Below, one piece after another: positions 17,918-26,502 of a stretch of DNA of 28,388 nt (positions within the stretch are counted from its first letter, which is position 1; each line of letters opens with the position of its first letter). A model generated the notes under the pieces. The model did not search any database. It worked only from the letters and a program-made list of their open reading frames with translations, and was not told the DNA's origin. The position numbers and the translations under genes are program-made. Source of the stretch: a virus; IMG/VR virus record IMGVR_UViG_3300042147_000037, positions 1 through 28,388 of that record, one strand, 5' to 3'.

Positions 17918-19888
17918 CTACGCGGGGTCGCGCGTGAACTTCCAGGAGTCTTCCTGGTTGTTCGCGAAGTGGTAGTTCGTGTCCGGGACCGAGTAGATCG
18001 TGACGGACGCGCCCGCAGCGATGGCGGACATGGCACCGGCGGAGAGCGTGGTGCCCGCAGCGTTCTTGTAGATCACGCCGGTGACGGTCGGGATGGTCAC
18101 GACACCCGTGGTCTTGTTGAACGCGGGCTGGACCGGGGTCACGAGGACGGACGTCGCGGCGGTCTTCCGGATGACGATCGCGGCCTTCGGACGGACGAGA
18201 GCACCCGACATACGGGTCTCCATCAGGTACTTGTACTGGTTGTAGTCGATGTCGAAGTCGTCGAACGTGGTCAGCTCGCCGCCACGGTCCGTACCGACGT
18301 TGAAGTCCATGAGGTTGACGATGATGCCGATCAGCCCCTCGACCTCCTTCATCGGCTCGACGGTGACGATCTTGTCGACGCCCAGCGCGTCGGCGACCTC
18401 CTGGCGGTTCTTGTAGTACCGCTGACCGTTGAGGTCCTTGGCCTGGAGGAACTTGTTGAGCTGGGGGATGGTCGTGAAGAACGTCGGCGTACCGGTGCCC
18501 TTGTAGTACTCCATGCCGTCCATGACGGCGTCCACGACCTCGTCGTAGCTGGAGTTGGCGTCGTCGACGTTGACGTTGACGGTGGTGACGTAGAACTCGT
18601 GGTCGTTGAGGATCGACCGGATACCCAGGCCGTCCTGGACACCCATCGGGTCCTTGATCTTGTCCTCGTCCGAGATGTCGCGGCCGTCACCGATGAGAAC
18701 CGCTCGCGCGATCTCCTCCTCGGTCATGAGCCGCATCTCACCCTTGAGGAAGGTGACCATGTCGAAGTCGGTGACGTCGAGGATGTCGTCACGGTCGAGC
18801 TGCTGCTTCTTGTAGATCGTGACCGGACCGGTGGTCCGCTTGGTGACGCCGATCCACTCTTCCTTCTTGTACGCACCCTTGACGTAACCCTTGGCACGGG
18901 CGGCTTCCTGGGTCAGGTCGGCGGAGAGCGTCTTGATCCGGGAGAACGGGGTGTGACGCATACCGTTGAGAACGACGGACACCCACTCGGTCCGGCGCTT
19001 GTCGAGCTCGATGACGCCGGTCGCCATCTTCGCGTCCGGGAACAGGACGTCGATGTTCTCGACACCGTGCTGGAGAGCGAAGTTCTTGGCCACCTTGCGA
19101 AGGGAACCGGTCGCCATGGCATCCGCGAAGATGCCCTCGATGTCCTCGTGGGTAAGGGTGGTCTTCTCGTTGGACGGACCGTTGTTGGTCGTCTGGTCGA
19201 ACACGTTGCGCGACATCTCGTCGGTTCCTTCCTGGTGGGCGATCTCGCCCTCTCCGGGCTGTACGATGGCGGACTGGGCCGCCTCCTTGGCGGCGTTTTC
19301 GAGGGCGACGCCGACGAAGTAGTAGACGACGTTCTGCTCTTCCTCGGACATACCGTTGAAGACGTCGTTGACAGTGAGGTCCTTATGGACCAGCTCTTCG
19401 CCCTCTTCGATCTCGTCGAGAGCGTGCTCCAGCTCGAGACCCATGTGGATGACGGCCTCGTCTTCCAACTCGGTAATGGAGTCGTCGGCGTGCCGGATGT
19501 TCACCCAATCGATCCTCGCCTCGGGGTTCGCACCCGCAAGAACCAGACTGACTTCCCGGATCTCTCCGTGAACGACGTTCTGTCCGCTCTTGGTGAGCTT
19601 GTTGGCGTAGATGGACAGGTGCTGGATGTCGCGGTGAGCAACCAGACCCTTGGCTACGTTGCCCTGAGGAGTGTCGTTGAAGAACGCGTAGGCGTAGACG
19701 CCGTCGTCACGGCTCTCCAGGATCGCGTGTCCGAGCACGTTCTGAATGTTGCTGTGCCCGTGCTGGTAGACCAGCGGGACCTTCTTGTCGTGCATGTGCT
19801 TGAAGGCACCGGGAAGGATGGTGAGGCCGTCGCTGCACTTGACGTTGGCCTTCGTTGCCCATCCACCGAAATCCGCTTCGATGGTCAT
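17918..19888 (-). CDS. Capsid maturation protease fused to major capsid protein, with Ig-like C-terminus (656 aa)
   Basis: One frame joins three parts. Residues 1-135 are an HK97-type prohead protease: PLVYQHGHS contains the catalytic His (43 or 45) and GEIREVSLVLAGANP the Ser (114). Residues about 135-225 are an acidic helical linker that could act as scaffold. Residues about 225-575 are an HK97-fold capsid protein beginning MSRNVFDQ. Residues 584-656 form an Ig-like domain similar to that of the tail tube protein. The protease would cut itself off during maturation. Codons are strongly G/C-ending. ATG at 19888 lies within TCAAAATG, with CAGGAG upstream. Large size comes from the fusion; no frameshift or stop separates the parts. 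Confidence 0.92.
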   Translation of the reverse strand: MTIEADFGGWATKANVKCSDGLTILPGAFKHMHDKKVPLVYQHGHSNIQNVLGHAILESRDDGVYAYAFFNDTPQGNVAKGLVAHRDIQHLSIYANKLTKSGQNVVHGEIREVSLVLAGANPEARIDWVNIRHADDSITELEDEAVIHMGLELEHALDEIEEGEELVHKDLTVNDVFNGMSEEEQNVVYYFVGVALENAAKEAAQSAIVQPGEGEIAHQEGTDEMSRNVFDQTTNNGPSNEKTTLTHEDIEGIFADAMATGSLRKVAKNFALQHGVENIDVLFPDAKMATGVIELDKRRTEWVSVVLNGMRHTPFSRIKTLSADLTQEAARAKGYVKGAYKKEEWIGVTKRTTGPVTIYKKQQLDRDDILDVTDFDMVTFLKGEMRLMTEEEIARAVLIGDGRDISDEDKIKDPMGVQDGLGIRSILNDHEFYVTTVNVNVDDANSSYDEVVDAVMDGMEYYKGTGTPTFFTTIPQLNKFLQAKDLNGQRYYKNRQEVADALGVDKIVTVEPMKEVEGLIGIIVNLMDFNVGTDRGGELTTFDDFDIDYNQYKYLMETRMSGALVRPKAAIVIRKTAATSVLVTPVQPAFNKTTGVVTIPTVTGVIYKNAAGTTLSAGAMSAIAAGASVTIYSVPDTNYHFANNQEDSWKFTRDPA

Positions 19889-19909: not shown

Positions 19910-20434
19910 TTAGCTTTTCGCCCGAGACGCGATGGCCCCTGACTTGCGCATCTTGGCGATCCGCTCCTGAATGGTCTTGAGTTTCGCAGTCAGCGACTTC
20001 ACTTCGTCCGCAAGCTGCTCGTTCTTGGTCTTCTGGTAGTACTTCGCCTGAGCTTTCGCTTCCTTAGCCTTCTGAGAGGCTGTCAGATGCTCTTTCTTAC
20101 GACTCGTACTCTTATCGGAAGACTTACGGTCGTTTGACGACTTGGAATCGGAAGATGTGTTCTTCTTCTCCGTAGTCTTGACGCCGCTTCGAGCTTTGGC
20201 CTGCTTTGTGAGAAGTTTCAGCGCCTCCTGAAGCTTTTCCAGCCGCGCTCTCAATGCGGCTACCTGAGCTTCGAGTTGACGCTGTCGTTGCTTACGTCGC
20301 TCCTGCTGGGTCTGTCGGGGACGAGACTTCGACACGTCCAGAGTGCCGGTCTTACGCCCCTTGAGCTGACGAGTCTTCAGGTAATATGCCCGGCGCTTTT
20401 CCGGATCATAAACGTGAACGAGTTCGTCATCCAT
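19910..20434 (-). CDS. Coiled-coil protein between portal and capsid genes, scaffold candidate (174 aa)
   Basis: Highly charged protein with two coiled-coil stretches at about residues 42-82 and 120-164 and a Ser/Lys linker at 84-115. It starts MDDELVHVYDPEKRRAYYLK and includes TRQLKGRK, a YDP-x-K-x-x-x-YY-x-x-T-x-x-LKGR pattern I recall from phage proteins of the portal-capsid region, often beside HYGVKGMKWG proteins. Location and helix content suit a scaffolding or internal head protein, but the capsid fusion may already supply a scaffold. ATG at 20434 overlaps the portal stop by eight bases, which suggests coupling. Confidence 0.65.
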   Translation of the reverse strand: MDDELVHVYDPEKRRAYYLKTRQLKGRKTGTLDVSKSRPRQTQQERRKQRQRQLEAQVAALRARLEKLQEALKLLTKQAKARSGVKTTEKKNTSSDSKSSNDRKSSDKSTSRKKEHLTASQKAKEAKAQAKYYQKTKNEQLADEVKSLTAKLKTIQERIAKMRKSGAIASRAKS

Positions 20435-21764
20435 CTTCGATCCCCAGATCAGAGAAGATCGAATCGACTACACCACTGAGTTCGTCCAGACCACTTTGCA
20501 GAGCTTCATCGCCGTCGTCCGGAATATCAGCAGACTCATCGAGCGGTACCGCAGGGCTCTCGAGAGGCTGAGGCATGTTGCTGTTGATGAGCTTGTCCGC
20601 CTTCGGATCCTTCGACGGCTTGATACCGATAGCCGCACGGATCTCGTTCGAAGCCAGAACCTCGTTCCGGGTGAACTTGTCCACGATCTCGGCAAGCTGT
20701 TCCATCGGAACGAGCTTGAACGGGTCCCGGAAATACATGATCGACTGCTTCTGTGTCCGAGCCGTCTTGGACAGGAAGGTTCGCTTCATGGCTTCCGAGA
20801 TCGCTTGTACGAGAGGCTCGACAGTCCTGTTGAAATAATTCAGCATGGCCTTTTCATCGGCCGTACCGTCCATGACTTCAGGAGTCAGACCAAGCTGAGC
20901 GTACAACTGATTCGTGAGGTATTCGATCTGCTTCAGAAGGTTGTTCTCAAGCGGTCGGTTCAGCTGCTGGATCTTTTCGGTACCGTCGACATAGGCGATA
21001 CCGTACTTGCTGCCCGTCAGCTGGGCTTCCAGATCCTTACGCCTTTGTTCCGCCTGCTGCCGACGGGCTTCATGCTTGACGACGTAAGGGAGCTGGATGA
21101 TCATGTCCAGCTTTCCGGAACTGGTGATCTCGTCAACCGTATCCAGCATGCTGAGCTTGCGCTGCAGACGCTTCAGGGTAGAGTTCGGCTGATTCATCAC
21201 CGCATAAAGAGGGTTCTCGACAACCGCCGCAAGTCTCTTGGGAACGGTTACTTCTTTCCTCTCGCCGTACCGGTCATCGTAGAGACTGACTCGGACATGC
21301 TGAGGAAACCATCCGACAATGGTTCCTACTCGGAGTTGCTGAACACTGAACGCGTTGTTGTCTGTCGGATCAATATCGGTGACCACCGGGACTATGGCGA
21401 TGCAGCCCTCTTCGAAGAGAGTCATCGCTATGTCCTGACGGAACTGACGAGCCCCCTGATCAATGTTCGGCTCGACGGTCAGGCACTCCTGAAGGTCGGT
21501 TTTCATGTCCTCCAGATATCGGTCCTGGTCGTCCACTCGGACATGTCTGATGTCGATACCTGCTACATCGATCGCCATACGAGTATGGATAGATGCGAGG
21601 ATAGAACGTTCGTTAGAGAACGCAGACCTTCGGTAATTCGGGTTACCGTAGATGCCCGATCCCCGGTCATGCGAATGGATGCCCCCGTTTATGTAATTTT
21701 CGTCTGTGAACAGACTCCAACTGTGTTTGAGAACACCAGCCACCTTTGACAGCAATCCTGCCAT
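20427..21764 (-). CDS. Portal protein (445 aa)
   Basis: HK97-type portal, the dodecameric ring through which DNA enters and leaves the head. Supporting segments are SWSLFTDENYINGG, AFSNERSILASIHTRMAIDVAGI at the N-terminus, IEYLTNQLYAQLGLTPEVMDG-like stem residues (about 285-305) and RNEVLASNEIRAAIGIKPS near 375-395. The C-terminal 50 residues are acidic. The ATG at 21764 follows AGAGGAGGTGA, preceded by GTCAAAAT. Order portal, coiled-coil protein, protease-capsid is standard; two tag-bearing genes separate it from the terminase. Confidence 0.92.
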   Translation of the reverse strand: MAGLLSKVAGVLKHSWSLFTDENYINGGIHSHDRGSGIYGNPNYRRSAFSNERSILASIHTRMAIDVAGIDIRHVRVDDQDRYLEDMKTDLQECLTVEPNIDQGARQFRQDIAMTLFEEGCIAIVPVVTDIDPTDNNAFSVQQLRVGTIVGWFPQHVRVSLYDDRYGERKEVTVPKRLAAVVENPLYAVMNQPNSTLKRLQRKLSMLDTVDEITSSGKLDMIIQLPYVVKHEARRQQAEQRRKDLEAQLTGSKYGIAYVDGTEKIQQLNRPLENNLLKQIEYLTNQLYAQLGLTPEVMDGTADEKAMLNYFNRTVEPLVQAISEAMKRTFLSKTARTQKQSIMYFRDPFKLVPMEQLAEIVDKFTRNEVLASNEIRAAIGIKPSKDPKADKLINSNMPQPLESPAVPLDESADIPDDGDEALQSGLDELSGVVDSIFSDLGIEDG

Positions 21765-21796: not shown

Positions 21797-22666
21797 CTAG
21801 CTGTACTCTTTACCTTCGGGAATCTTGAGATCGAGAAGAGCCTGATTAACGTCGTCAGCACTGAGTGGCTTGACGCTCATCTTCTTCAATGTTCCGTTTG
21901 GGTTGAGTACGATGAGAGGAGCCTCGGAGAGATGTCCGCGGTCATTGTCGTCAATAACCGAGTTATAGCCCTTTTCACGAACAGCTTTGAAATACGCTGA
22001 GTTGAGAGGAGTGTCAGCATACTGCATTTCGGTGAAGTCCTTATACGCTCTCAGTCCCAGTTGATGAGAGTTCAAACGCTTCACTTCTTTGGGGTAACTC
22101 CTCTTCAGGTATTCCCTTCCGGTGACGGTCTTACCGTTCTTCAACGTGATGGACTTGGTATCCATCAAACCTATGAACGCATCAACACGAGCCTTCTCCG
22201 AAGGAGATTTGAGCGTGTTGACGGCTTTGAACGTCACCTCATAGTGCTGCTTGTAGGACTTGCTGCCTCCGGATTTGAACGGGTTCTTCGAGTTGGTCAG
22301 AGGCATGACCGCACGATAGAGACTTTGATCAGATTTTGTATAGGAAACGTAAGTAGATTCCCCATACGTTTCGGCGGATCTCTTTGTGACTCGACGTACG
22401 TTAGTACCCTTCCTGACCAGTTGATCCTTGGTCGAAAGTTTGTTGTACTCCTCGTCGGTCATCTTTCGAGTAAAAAGATCTTCGCCGGTTCTGTACTTGC
22501 TCTCCATGGCAGCAACAGCGAGATCGTTGTGCCTCTTTCGCGCTGCTTTACGCTGCTCCTTAGTCCAAGTTGAGGGTTCGGACTTCCTCACACCCCACTT
22601 CATACCCTTGACGCCGTAATGAGAGAGTTCGCCCGAAGACGTCATCCCTTTGATCTTGTACGGCAC
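21797..22666 (-). CDS. HYGVKGMKWGVRK-tagged protein of unknown function (289 aa)
   Basis: The shared tag (HYGVKGMKWGVRK) lies near the N-terminus at about residues 16-28, followed by a basic helical linker (WTKEQRKAARKRHND). The rest has GTNVRRVTKRSAETYGESTY, QSLYRAVMPL and a C-terminal GYNSVIDDNDRGHLSEAPL, then IVLNP. I recall similar tagged proteins in prophages; the VRRVT ... STY spacing vaguely resembles ADP-ribosyltransferase motifs, but no catalytic Glu is identified. GTG at 22666 is preferred because the strong GGAGG lies six bases upstream of it; the ATG at 22672 touches that site. It precedes the portal by 32 bases. A packaged cargo role is inference. Confidence 0.75.
   Translation of the reverse strand: MPYKIKGMTSSGELSHYGVKGMKWGVRKSEPSTWTKEQRKAARKRHNDLAVAAMESKYRTGEDLFTRKMTDEEYNKLSTKDQLVRKGTNVRRVTKRSAETYGESTYVSYTKSDQSLYRAVMPLTNSKNPFKSGGSKSYKQHYEVTFKAVNTLKSPSEKARVDAFIGLMDTKSITLKNGKTVTGREYLKRSYPKEVKRLNSHQLGLRAYKDFTEMQYADTPLNSAYFKAVREKGYNSVIDDNDRGHLSEAPLIVLNPNGTLKKMSVKPLSADDVNQALLDLKIPEGKEYS
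22583..22621 (-). repeat. HYGVKGMKWGVRK tag coding segment, copy in the 289-aa gene
   Basis: Thirteen codons encoding HYGVKGMKWGVRK. The DNA core CCCTTGACGCCGTA (plus strand) is shared with the copies at 23083-23121 and 25577-25615, with several synonymous differences here. Confidence 0.85.
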
Positions 22667-22683
22667 GAACATCCTCCTTCCGG

Positions 22684-23136
22684 CTAGAGTGAAGAGATGT
22701 TGTAGACACCCTTGCGGTTCTTGGCGTAGTCCGGACCGGTTGTCGCATGACGGGGAAGCCCCATCGCATCGGATACTGCGGCACGACCTCGGTTTGTCTC
22801 GGCTCGCTTTGCCACGGACTGAGCGGCAACACCTGCCGAGAGTTTGATGACGTTTCCGATCACTCGGGCGCCGGAAGCGATTTCCGGTCCGAAAAGGACG
22901 CCCAGACCTACAGCAGTTCTCTGGCGGGCATTGCGCCGCCTTTCGGCCGTTCGGGCTTGATCCAGCGTCTTCCCTTGGTTCAAACGCCGGTTGATGCGCT
23001 TGACGCCTCGCTTACCGTGCTGGGTCTTGTCATAGGCCCTGCTTCCGGCGGAGTACTGCTGGTTCGGTGCGTTCAGCTCCGCACGTCGGACGCCCCATCG
23101 CATGCCCTTGACGCCGTAGTGAACGAGTTCACTCAT
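22684..23136 (-). CDS. HYGVKGMRWGVRR-tagged basic protein (150 aa)
   Basis: The tag lies at residues 6-18, almost at the N-terminus. It is followed by YDKTQHGKRGVKRINRRLN, a segment I recall in other phage proteins that carry this tag, then a strongly basic run (ARTAERRRNARQR, 61-73), a hydrophobic helix at about 75-109 and a C-terminus ending GVYNISSL. Basic charge would suit contact with packaged DNA; the hydrophobic part could insert into a membrane on ejection. ATG at 23136 follows AGGAGATCGAC. Function unknown. Confidence 0.75.
   Translation of the reverse strand: MSELVHYGVKGMRWGVRRAELNAPNQQYSAGSRAYDKTQHGKRGVKRINRRLNQGKTLDQARTAERRRNARQRTAVGLGVLFGPEIASGARVIGNVIKLSAGVAAQSVAKRAETNRGRAAVSDAMGLPRHATTGPDYAKNRKGVYNISSL
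23083..23121 (-). repeat. HYGVKGMRWGVRR tag coding segment, copy in the 150-aa gene
   Basis: Thirteen codons encoding HYGVKGMRWGVRR. The first 21 bases in coding direction are identical to those of the copy at 25577-25615, more than protein-level conservation alone would require. Confidence 0.85.
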
Positions 23137-23156: not shown

Positions 23157-23399
23157 TCAGGCTTCGAGGGCGGCGACCCGAGCCTCGAGCTTGGCGATGG
23201 CCTCGAGAAGGGTGTCCGTCTCCTCGACGTCGTCCGCTGCGACAGGGGCGTAGCCCGTCATCACGATGTTGGTACCGGACGGAGACCAGAGATCGCCCTC
23301 CTCGGTCACGAGAGCGATCTTAGCCGTGTACCGGTTACCGAGACTGCTCAGGTTTTCGGTGACGACGGCACGGCCTACGAAACCGTTGAAACCACTCAT
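23157..23399 (-). CDS. Small protein with C-terminal coiled coil (80 aa)
   Basis: Residues 1-50 look beta-rich (FVGRAVVTENL, YTAKIALVTEEGDLW); residues about 58-80 form a short heptad-type helix (TDTLLEAIAKLEARVAALEA) that could trimerise. This is the plan of small head-decoration or fibre-base proteins, which is a guess. ATG at 23399 overlaps the terminase stop as ATGA with GGAGGCATTCGA before it, so it is translationally coupled to the terminase. Codons are largely G/C-ending. No specific family is recognised. Confidence 0.7.
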   Translation of the reverse strand: MSGFNGFVGRAVVTENLSSLGNRYTAKIALVTEEGDLWSPSGTNIVMTGYAPVAADDVEETDTLLEAIAKLEARVAALEA

Positions 23400-25141
23400 T
23401 CGAATGCCTCCTTATGGAGCTTGTACGCGACGAAGGCGTCCAACATCGCGGCTACGTTGTCGATCTTGGCTTCCTGGCGCTTCTTCCAAAGCTTCCGGTT
23501 ACCGTTTGTGTCTTCCATCGTGATGGCATTACCCATCGCGAAGGTCATCAGATCCTGATCAAATATGAGCAAGCGTTCGCCACTCAGAGCCTTCAGTTCA
23601 CCAAGCGGAACAGACTCTGTACGCGCCCCCTGGATGACTTTCTCTATGCCATACGGCCCATTCTCCGCTTCCCAGCGGGTGACGAACTCCTTAGCGTTGT
23701 AGGGGTCGAAACCAAATGCGCGCACGTCATAGTCAGATCTCTGGATGAAGTCATCCAGATCATCATAGACTTCCATCATGTCGAGGATGGTGCCTTCCAT
23801 GATATGAAGGCTGCCCTCGTTTATGAAGTCGTCATACTTCTTCCGCATTGCGCCTGGAAGGTTCATCAATGTCAGAGAAGTGATGTAGCTACGAGTCTTG
23901 ATTCCGAACCCGCCGTTGCCTAGCGGGAACATGAAGGTGAAGGCACAGAAGTCGTCACCCTGCGAAAGGTCAGCACCTAGTGCGCAGGGCATACCGTCGA
24001 ACCAGGCCCGAGGATGCGGAAGTGTCTCCTCGTAAGTGAAGAAGTACGTGAAGCCTTCCATGGGTATCCCGAATCTCTTGGCGAGAATATCATTCCTCGC
24101 CGCTGGGGCTTTCTCGGCCCGTTCGACATCGAGCTGATAGACGTCGTAAGTAACTGTCTTGCCGAGATTCGGGTTGGCCTTCAGCCACGTCTCCGGATTT
24201 GCGACTTCTTCCAGTTCATCCAGCTTGTAATGCCAGATCGAAACGTGGGGTGCTTGGTACTTACCTTTGAGAATATCGGCAAGCTCAAGCTTGATGGTGT
24301 CACCACTGCCATTCCGGACTGTTCCCTCAGAACTGACAGCCACGATGAGGTAGTCGTCGAGCTTTGAGGCTCCCTGTTCGATGGCACCGATGACATCCTC
24401 TCGCAGATCCCCAGAAAGCCACTCATCTACAGTGGCGACCTTGGTCCGAAGACCCTGCAATTTATTGATGGTCATCGGACGGACTTCGAGCATCGAGCCG
24501 GTGAGGAAGTTTTCGACACCCTTTTTGGTCGCAGCGAGTTTAACTCTGTTCGCTTTTGATCCGGTTGTGTTCTGAAGTGATCCTTCTGTCAAAAATGCGA
24601 ACAGAGGTCCACGGCTCCGAGTGATAGAAGTGCGAATCGGTGACATTACCTCTTCGGCCTGCTTCATTGTCGGAGCTGTTGTGATCTGATGTGTCGTCGA
24701 CGTGTCCACATTGAGGAAATAGCTCTGAAGACACGACTCGTACAGCGACTTGGCGGCACCTCGGGCAACGATGAGGTACTGCTTTGTCGTCAGACGCTTC
24801 TTGACGATCTTGTCGACGTAAACGCCTCCGCGACCGTTCGGAAGGGGTTCGTAGACGCTTCGATTGACGAAGTAGTACCAGCAGAAAATCTGCTCGGCCC
24901 ACATCTTGAACGTGTCCAACAGATGCAGATCACTGCCATCGGTCAGCGTCAGCTCATTCTCACAATAGAGAATGAAACCCTCGGTCGGTCTTGGGTCGTA
25001 GTAGATGTTCGGGTTGGCGATGAGCGCGTCGATACGGTTCATCTCCAGTGAGATTTCCCGGTTTACAGGAATTTCTCCCCGAATAACCGCGGCACGGAAT
25101 TCGCCGTAATACTTCGGCGTCGCCGTGTTCGACAGTTCCAT
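23396..25141 (-). CDS. terL: Terminase large subunit (581 aa)
   Basis: DNA-packaging motor with ATPase and nuclease domains, of the HK97 Terminase_1 type. The Walker A-like motif is RGAAKS (127-132), Walker B is VATVDE (235-240), and the nuclease acidic residues are likely D391 in GADLSQGDD, D479 in GFDPYNAKEF and D561 in IDNVAAMLDAF. Length is usual. ATG at 25141 follows GGAAGGAGGGTGG. It docks on the portal with the small subunit, whose gene is 2.7 kb upstream because several unrelated genes separate them. Confidence 0.95.
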   Translation of the reverse strand: MELSNTATPKYYGEFRAAVIRGEIPVNREISLEMNRIDALIANPNIYYDPRPTEGFILYCENELTLTDGSDLHLLDTFKMWAEQIFCWYYFVNRSVYEPLPNGRGGVYVDKIVKKRLTTKQYLIVARGAAKSLYESCLQSYFLNVDTSTTHQITTAPTMKQAEEVMSPIRTSITRSRGPLFAFLTEGSLQNTTGSKANRVKLAATKKGVENFLTGSMLEVRPMTINKLQGLRTKVATVDEWLSGDLREDVIGAIEQGASKLDDYLIVAVSSEGTVRNGSGDTIKLELADILKGKYQAPHVSIWHYKLDELEEVANPETWLKANPNLGKTVTYDVYQLDVERAEKAPAARNDILAKRFGIPMEGFTYFFTYEETLPHPRAWFDGMPCALGADLSQGDDFCAFTFMFPLGNGGFGIKTRSYITSLTLMNLPGAMRKKYDDFINEGSLHIMEGTILDMMEVYDDLDDFIQRSDYDVRAFGFDPYNAKEFVTRWEAENGPYGIEKVIQGARTESVPLGELKALSGERLLIFDQDLMTFAMGNAITMEDTNGNRKLWKKRQEAKIDNVAAMLDAFVAYKLHKEAFE

Positions 25142-25156
25142 CGTCCACCCTCCTTC

Positions 25157-26167
25157 CTACTGCGTCATTCGCCTTACGACGACTCCGGCGCCTGCTGCGG
25201 CTGCTGGACCGACTCCACCTGTGAAATATCCGAAGGTGGCGGCAGCGGCGGTCTTGAGCCCGGTCTTGACGTGCTCACCTGTCGGGGTTTCCAGGAACTT
25301 GCGGGTCTTCTCGATGGTGTTACCTATGGCGAGCATCTTCTTGACCTGATTGTGTCCTCGGTCAATTATCGCCTGCTGCTGAGGCGAGGGAGAGGTGATC
25401 GACTGCTGGAAACGACGCTCCAGATCCATTCGCTCGAGGTACTGACGCATCTCCTGATTGGAAAGGGAGCCGGTACCCTTGGTCTGAATCTTGTCGTGGA
25501 GCTTGTTGGCGTTCCGGGCATCTTCGGATAGGCGTGGCTTGGGTCCGCTTGGAGCGCTGGCGAGTTCGGCATCGCTTCTGCGAACACCCCACTTCATGCC
25601 CTTGACGCCGTAGTGGTAGAGGTCGTCCATGGCGATACGTCCTCTTTCGATCTGAGACATCGCTACCGCCATCTCGGTTTCCGGATACTTGAGTTCGAAC
25701 GTGGGACCTACAGAGTCGTCGACCCAGACAGCGATACGGTCGAAGCTCACGTAGGTGACTTCTCGGTGATCGATCGGGTCTTTCGCCGGGTTGTCGGGAT
25801 ACCCTAGAGTGAGATGTGGTGTCCACGAAGGGTATTGCTTCGGGATCAGATACGCTTTCCGGATCAACTCGTTCTGAAGGAGATGACTTCTGAACAGAGC
25901 GATGTCCTTCGTCCACTCCTTGTGGAAGAAGAGAACATCCGCATTCTGGTCACCCAGCTCCCCGCGCTTCTCGACTTCGAGTACGAAAGGACTGAGCTGA
26001 GATGCAGCATGCTCGACCTGCCCGACGACGAGTTCCATCTCGGCGGCATCAAAAGGATTTGCGCCGAGATAGAGGAGGGTGAGATGCGGTTCCTTCTCGC
26101 TGGAGATCTTCCGAACGTAGTCTCCCTCGCGAGGGAGGGCTACTACAACGAGATCGGTTCGGTCCAT
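25157..26167 (-). CDS. 2H phosphoesterase domain fused to HYGVKGMKWGVRR tag and helical tail (336 aa)
   Basis: Residues 1-165 are a 2H phosphoesterase (2'-5' RNA ligase superfamily) with both H-x-T motifs: PHLTLLYLG (His28, Thr30) and PHLTLGY (His118, Thr120). The tag HYGVKGMKWGVRR is at 185-197. Residues 198-336 are helical with a hydrophobic Ala/Gly-rich end (about 301-331). Known 2H enzymes act on 2'-5' or cyclic nucleotide bonds; T4 Acb1 of this superfamily degrades CBASS signals, other members process tRNA or ADP-ribose phosphates. ATG at 26167 overlaps the adaptor gene by 25 bases. The active-site pairs are intact, so activity is plausible; the substrate is unknown. Confidence 0.85.
   Translation of the reverse strand: MDRTDLVVVALPREGDYVRKISSEKEPHLTLLYLGANPFDAAEMELVVGQVEHAASQLSPFVLEVEKRGELGDQNADVLFFHKEWTKDIALFRSHLLQNELIRKAYLIPKQYPSWTPHLTLGYPDNPAKDPIDHREVTYVSFDRIAVWVDDSVGPTFELKYPETEMAVAMSQIERGRIAMDDLYHYGVKGMKWGVRRSDAELASAPSGPKPRLSEDARNANKLHDKIQTKGTGSLSNQEMRQYLERMDLERRFQQSITSPSPQQQAIIDRGHNQVKKMLAIGNTIEKTRKFLETPTGEHVKTGLKTAAAATFGYFTGGVGPAAAAGAGVVVRRMTQ
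25577..25615 (-). repeat. HYGVKGMKWGVRR tag coding segment, copy in the 2H phosphoesterase gene
   Basis: Thirteen codons encoding HYGVKGMKWGVRR, placed in mid-protein between the enzyme domain and the helical tail. A Met (AMDDLY) lies five residues before it, resembling the N-termini of the two other tagged proteins. Confidence 0.85.
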
Positions 26168-26502
26168 TGGTCACCCTCCCTCAGGACGCTGATCCTATAC
26201 GTGTATTCGTCCCTCTGCAGCTTGTACGCATCCCCGAGGAAGGATGTTCCTGGAGGATCGAACAGCCTCTTCACTTCGAGATAGACGAATGACTTGACGA
26301 AGTTGTACCGCCTGTCAGGGAGGAAGTCTTCCCACAAGGCCGAGTCATCCTCGATCTCGAACCCGTCTTCGGGACCGACTCCCAGCTGTGTCAGAGTAGC
26401 GAACACAGAGTTGATGTGTATCAAGAGATCGAGATCGAAGCTGTCGTCGTCTTCGGTCAGCCCGATAACCTTCTTGATGGTGTTGAGTATGCTCTGGGCC
26501 AT
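26143..26502 (-). CDS. Head-tail adaptor protein, out of place (119 aa)
   Basis: The pattern LNTIKKVIGL, INSVFATLTQLGVGPEDGFEI, DFLPDRRYNFVKSFVYLEVKRLFDPP is that of head-tail connector adaptors (HK97 gp6-like role) in phages of Gram-positive bacteria, which bind the portal and receive the head closure ring. Normally this gene follows the capsid gene; here it is some 8 kb away, upstream of the terminase. ATG at 26502 follows GGAGGAGG, preceded by GTCAAAAT as at the portal gene. Length is normal. Confidence 0.8.
   Translation of the reverse strand: MAQSILNTIKKVIGLTEDDDSFDLDLLIHINSVFATLTQLGVGPEDGFEIEDDSALWEDFLPDRRYNFVKSFVYLEVKRLFDPPGTSFLGDAYKLQRDEYTYRISVLREGDQWTEPISL

Follow-up and report, generated by a model that had tools for sequence, protein, structure and literature searches.

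Internal head proteins of the T4 type carry a capsid targeting sequence. The virion-delivered effectors recognised so far have mostly been found because they are fused to a MuF, portal or ejection protein. For 2H phosphoesterase domains on MuF or portal proteins, packaging and injection have been predicted and a role in counter-signalling has been proposed (Iyer et al. 2017, PMC5512222; 2022, PMC9503650). A head-borne 2H enzyme has thus been proposed in print before. The anti-CBASS nuclease Acb1 also has the 2H fold with two HxT motifs (PMC9117128). Here we describe a phage gene in which a 2H domain is followed by a short peptide tag and a helical tail.

The 2H-tag gene and its intact 2H domain

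The window, which is the whole stretch of DNA that was analysed, is a virus record of 28,388 bases. The minus strand carries its head genes in the order endolysin, connector, 2H-tag gene, terminase, a small ORF (23157-23399), two tagged genes, portal, coiled protein and protease-capsid fusion. The 2H-tag gene (25157..26167, minus strand, as are all features below) encodes a protein of 336 aa. Its ATG start is closely preceded by a good Shine-Dalgarno-like sequence, GGGAGGG. The gene overlaps by 25 bases the upstream head-tail connector gene (26143..26502; PF24829, E=1.3e-32), and is followed directly by the gene of the terminase large subunit (23396..25141; PF20441, E=5.2e-32), which shares 90.5% identity with that of Streptomyces phage Scarif. 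An effector domain is thus encoded among the head genes, and the 2H-tag genes of phages Kardashian, Tanis and ReqiPoco6 occupy the same position between connector and terminase. Two further tagged proteins are encoded between the terminase and the portal gene (20427..21764; PF04860, E=8.2e-17). The last gene of the order encodes a fusion of an S78 prohead protease with the major capsid protein (17918..19888; phrog_3270, E=3.5e-235; PF04586 and PF05065). Pfam and PHROG profiles matched no MuF or portal domain in the 336-aa protein.

The N-terminal residues 1-161 (25685..26167) form the 2H domain. The Pfam family PF13563 (2_5_RNA_ligase2) spans residues 24-129 with E=2.5e-8, above its cut-off. 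The earlier note had claimed that both catalytic motifs are intact, and this was confirmed: both read HLT, at residues 28-30 (26078..26086) and 118-120 (25808..25816), and H28, T30, H118 and T120 are invariant in an alignment of 27 relatives. Both HxT motifs are also kept in every 2H-bearing tagged ORF of IMG/VR that is complete over them (at least 57 ORFs carry the domain); those missed by the regular expression have HCT, HMTF or DPE variants or are cut by a contig end. The AlphaFold model of this part is of high pLDDT, and its comparison with 2H structures gives Foldseek E-values down to 6e-7 and VIA-align Z scores up to 12.4. With its two H-x-[T/S] motifs and duplicated alpha-beta fold the domain belongs to the 2H superfamily; it is intact and is a predicted phosphodiesterase. 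When the sequences of solved structures were searched by profile, the 2H domain had no match at E up to 1, and the tail drew weak helical matches.

The best VIA-align scores were obtained with CPDase (12.4), YjcG (12.3), LigT (11.8) and Usb1 (11.6), followed by the 2',5'-PDE of rotavirus VP3 (11.0). Since differences of less than 1 in Z are treated as ties, the fold names no substrate. The earlier note had offered Acb1 as the model and had suggested a structural comparison with Acb1 and LigT. Acb1 stands as a precedent from the same superfamily, but its rows score 7.9-8.4, below LigT and the other leading folds, so that by these Z scores the nearest fold is not Acb1.

Several 2H-tag and 2H-MuF genes of phages are deposited as 'RNA ligase', a name that is probably wrong because the matched part is the 2H domain. 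The family phrog_2659 (891 positions), which bears the same name, matches these proteins at its C-terminal 2H part only. A paper on 'a conserved phage phosphoesterase' (PMC12287305) concerns a metallophosphoesterase unrelated to the 2H-tag protein.

The DUF7211 tag, its capsid lineage and its cargo

The tag is a peptide of about 20 residues, L-x-H-Y-G-V-K-G-M-K-W-G-V-R-R, which corresponds to Pfam DUF7211 (PF23847). It lies at residues 181-201 (25565..25627; PF23847 E=1.5e-11, tag HMM i-E 3.7e-15), where DUF7211 matches residues 181-199 with 43.9 bits against a cut-off of 27, and it is modelled poorly, with pLDDT mostly below 50. From 352 distinct windows the consensus L-x-H-[YHF]-G-[VI]-K-G-M-[KRH]-W-G-V-R-[RK] was obtained. 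The pattern has no match in about 1.04 Mb of shuffled sequence; judged by this null and by the two further copies in the window, it is not a product of chance. Our search found no published description of the tag by its sequence, as DUF7211/PF23847 or as a shared head-linked module, in a collection covering few subscription journals and no bioRxiv preprints.

A pattern scan of IMG/VR returned at least 120 stretches, which together with the 2H loci contain at least 354 distinct tagged ORFs in at least 108 clusters. Among the matches listed, the tag lies inside the first 40 residues in 258 of the 354 ORFs, and a single locus has up to eight tagged ORFs. One 5.5-kb IMG/VR contig contains eight exact tag matches. 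DUF7211 was matched by every member of a 108-member sample of the tagged ORFs, in which there were also matches to the Gln_amidase papain-fold toxin (8) and to GNAT (4), and one weak match to Phage_scaffold. Custom profiles assigned an ART-like domain to at least 35 of the tagged ORFs in IMG/VR and a 2H domain to at least 57. In the complete genome of Kardashian every tag falls within 2-6.5 kb, and the remaining 47 kb contain no tag.

Relatives of the tag are also found in bacterial genome contigs, in Firmicutes and other MAGs; none of the matches listed from such contigs covers the 2H domain (residues 1-161). One group of DUF7211-like matches (L291-L309) comes from contigs labelled Firmicutes, Bacteroidota, Saccharibacteria and one Thermoplasmata archaeon, which are perhaps prophages or contamination.

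The tag is tied to one constant capsid lineage. In 50,697 phage records, compared by totals and genus counts rather than by record lists, the tag query matches 245 and the protease-capsid fusion 246, and the genus counts are near-identical, with Arthrobacter 95, Gordonia 55, Streptomyces 54 and Lactococcus 13 in both. Among the matches listed, phrog_3270 is present on 35 of the 36 tagged metagenomic contigs of at least 15 kb, the exception being a contig of 15.8 kb. Conversely, a tag was detected at all 35 metagenomic capsid loci that have 6.5 kb or more of upstream sequence, in 31 by the regular expression and in the last 4 by the HMM. At those 31 loci all 62 tags scored by the regular expression lie upstream of the capsid gene and on its strand, and none elsewhere. 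The portal has the same genus distribution as the tag, except for weak Streptococcus matches, and co-inheritance of the head module therefore explains the pattern as well as direct contact between tag and capsid.

Some matches to the capsid-fusion gene contain in-frame stops, namely two TGA in G016 (L043) and one TAA each in G010, G021 and G022 (L024, L051 and L052), which may reflect recoding, errors or stops at the edge of the match.

The tag is followed by a helical tail at residues 205-336 (25157..25555; phrog_11022, E=1.7e-44 over 179-336), which occurs without the 2H domain in phages Bing and Scarif. Their gp6 proteins correspond to the 2H-tag protein minus its 2H domain and begin, with MDR or MGR, a short way ahead of the tag. 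They share 67% (Bing) and 49% (Scarif) identity with the 336-aa protein where aligned, the latter in spite of the 90.5% identity between the terminases of Scarif and the window. On a tree of 113 tails the presence of the 2H domain changes at least 20 times; the tail alignment has 128 columns, which leaves many forks poorly settled, and at least 4 of the changes are forced by well supported branches. The 2H domain is thus swappable cargo, which has come and gone repeatedly while the core of tag and tail stayed conserved.

Of the two further tagged proteins in the window, the first (150 aa, 22684..23136) has the tag at its N-terminus (PF23847, E=6.3e-11) and belongs to phrog_34327, a family without known function. 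The second (291 aa, 21797..22672) has the tag near its N-terminus (PF23847, E=7.9e-11) and relatives in 121 phage records, sometimes two per genome. Its structural model has a mean pLDDT of 79, and the leading VIA-align rows are mostly NAD-using folds of the ART/NADase type with Z of 5-7.5; Foldseek gave no significant match for this model. The assignment to ART/NADase-like proteins is therefore of moderate confidence, as it is model-based.

Probable packaging and delivery, and possible substrates

The earlier note had regarded the peptide as a possible packaging tag. This suggestion is well supported by comparison, namely by the near-absolute link with one capsid lineage, by two kinds of relatives and by the repeated gain and loss of the 2H domain. 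The orf7 protein of Lactococcus phage 1706, encoded between connector and TerL, carries the DUF7211 tag twice and was deposited under the name 'structural protein', a label that reportedly derives from virion mass spectrometry. Independently of this, Microbacterium and Arthrobacter phages carry the 2H family of the 2H-tag protein on their MuF/capsid-protease proteins, and phage Hendrix carries it on its portal protein (gp47). Hendrix gp47 is a portal protein of 1,040 aa with the 2H domain at 843-971, and its annotation mentions the portal only. The tag was not found in the examined regions of phages with 2H-MuF or 2H-portal fusions. The literature yielded no virion proteomics or other virion assay of a 2H-tag protein: the Faecalibacterium phage paper holds no proteomics of phage Oengus, neither SDS-PAGE nor mass spectrometry was matched in the Arthrobacter phage paper, nor was mass spectrometry in the one on Microbacterium phages.

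Confinement of the tag to phages of one capsid type makes it probable that the 2H enzyme travels in the particle and enters the cell along with the DNA. We consider packaging of the 2H-tag protein in the head quite likely, and its delivery into the cell somewhat favoured. A slight preference is likewise given to DUF7211 as a head-sorting tag of the whole capsid lineage, with which each phage would load between one and eight interchangeable effectors, 2H among them, and, jointly with this, to a lineage made up of 1706-type protease-capsid fusion heads that spans phages of Actinobacteria, phages of Lactococcus and gut phages.

We propose that the tag and the helical tail would be the virion part of the protein, drawn into the prohead by a head of the protease-capsid-fusion type. 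The N-terminal 2H domain would be the exchangeable enzymatic cargo of the particle, delivered with the DNA into an actinobacterial host, probably Streptomyces, and the two further tagged proteins, one of them ART/NADase-like, would be delivered together with it. Inside the cell, the 2H domain would cleave a phosphodiester beside a ribose 2'-OH or 3'-OH. The most likely target, and the least certain step, would be a nucleotide immune signal (a cyclic or 2'-5' oligonucleotide), cleaved before phage genes are expressed. Such early action on nucleotide signals, which the earlier note had suggested, is plausible, and the literature already offers it for the 2H-MuF and 2H-portal fusions. As a whole, a head-packaged 2H effector is the best explanation, and we give it an even chance. 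An immune-signal nucleotide as the substrate is a tentative choice, with RNA ends or RNase action ranked next.

The 2H-tag protein may also be packaged but act on RNA, as a 2',3'-cyclic phosphodiesterase or Usb1-like RNase on host or phage RNA or tRNA ends. The nearest folds (CPDase, LigT, YjcG and Usb1), the Pfam family 2_5_RNA_ligase2 and the RNase role that Iyer et al. (2017, PMC5512222) list among the options for 2H domains of virions point this way; against it, the domain reaches 24.4 bits with TIGR02258 (LigT/ThpR RNA 2',3'-cyclic phosphodiesterase), below the cut-off of 65.7. Furthermore, no RNA ligase (PF09414), KptA (PF01885) or RtcB (PF01139) was detected in the 16 phage genomes or contigs searched, all of them with the 2H family, and this weakens repair with a phage-encoded partner and with it the tRNA repair that the earlier note had listed as an alternative. 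We regard an RNA enzyme as rather unlikely.

Slightly less likely still is that the tag-tail protein is an assembly factor, that is, a scaffold or minor head protein docked by the tag and later lost or kept as structure, with the 2H domain never reaching the host. The constant position between connector and terminase, the constant link with one capsid lineage and the weak Phage_scaffold match of one tagged protein all speak for such a factor. Against it stands the deposition of 1706 orf7 as a structural protein. The tagged proteins also bear many unrelated enzyme-like domains, and this, with the comings and goings of the 2H domain, is as expected of cargo. It is improbable that the 2H domain works jointly with the ART-like protein encoded nearby and has as its substrate ADP-ribose 1'',2''-cyclic phosphate or a related compound derived from NAD: the top-scoring CPDase acts on this cyclic phosphate, but its lead in Z is a tie, and KptA, the usual source of the cyclic phosphate, was not found in the carrier phages searched.

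If the tag marks such effectors across the capsid lineage, it would make many 'hypothetical proteins' of laboratory phages (Streptomyces, Gordonia, Arthrobacter, Lactococcus) candidates for effectors of the first minutes of infection. It would also provide a simple peptide with which the entry of cargo into heads could be studied, and the choice of internal proteins by protease-capsid-fusion heads would become directly testable.

Comparison with known systems

A counterpart of the 2H-tag protein at the same genome position is 1706 orf7, which also has DUF7211 tags and a related tail. It differs in having two tags, no 2H domain and a different C-terminal part. As in the T4-type internal head proteins, a short peptide, mostly near the N-terminus, is common to several unrelated proteins of one head; unlike in those proteins, the DUF7211 tag also stands between domains, and the likeness drawn here is one of layout. 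Acb1 shares the 2H fold and the two HxT motifs, although the fold match to it is weaker (Z 8.4 against 12.4 for CPDase), and Acb1 is not known to bear a head tag. Like the 2H-MuF and 2H-portal fusions (PMC5512222, PMC9503650), the 2H-tag protein ties a 2H domain to a head protein, and the domain belongs to the same sequence family as those of the Microbacterium and Arthrobacter phages. In contrast to these fusions, the carrier is a small tag-tail protein, and its tag is common to several other phage proteins.
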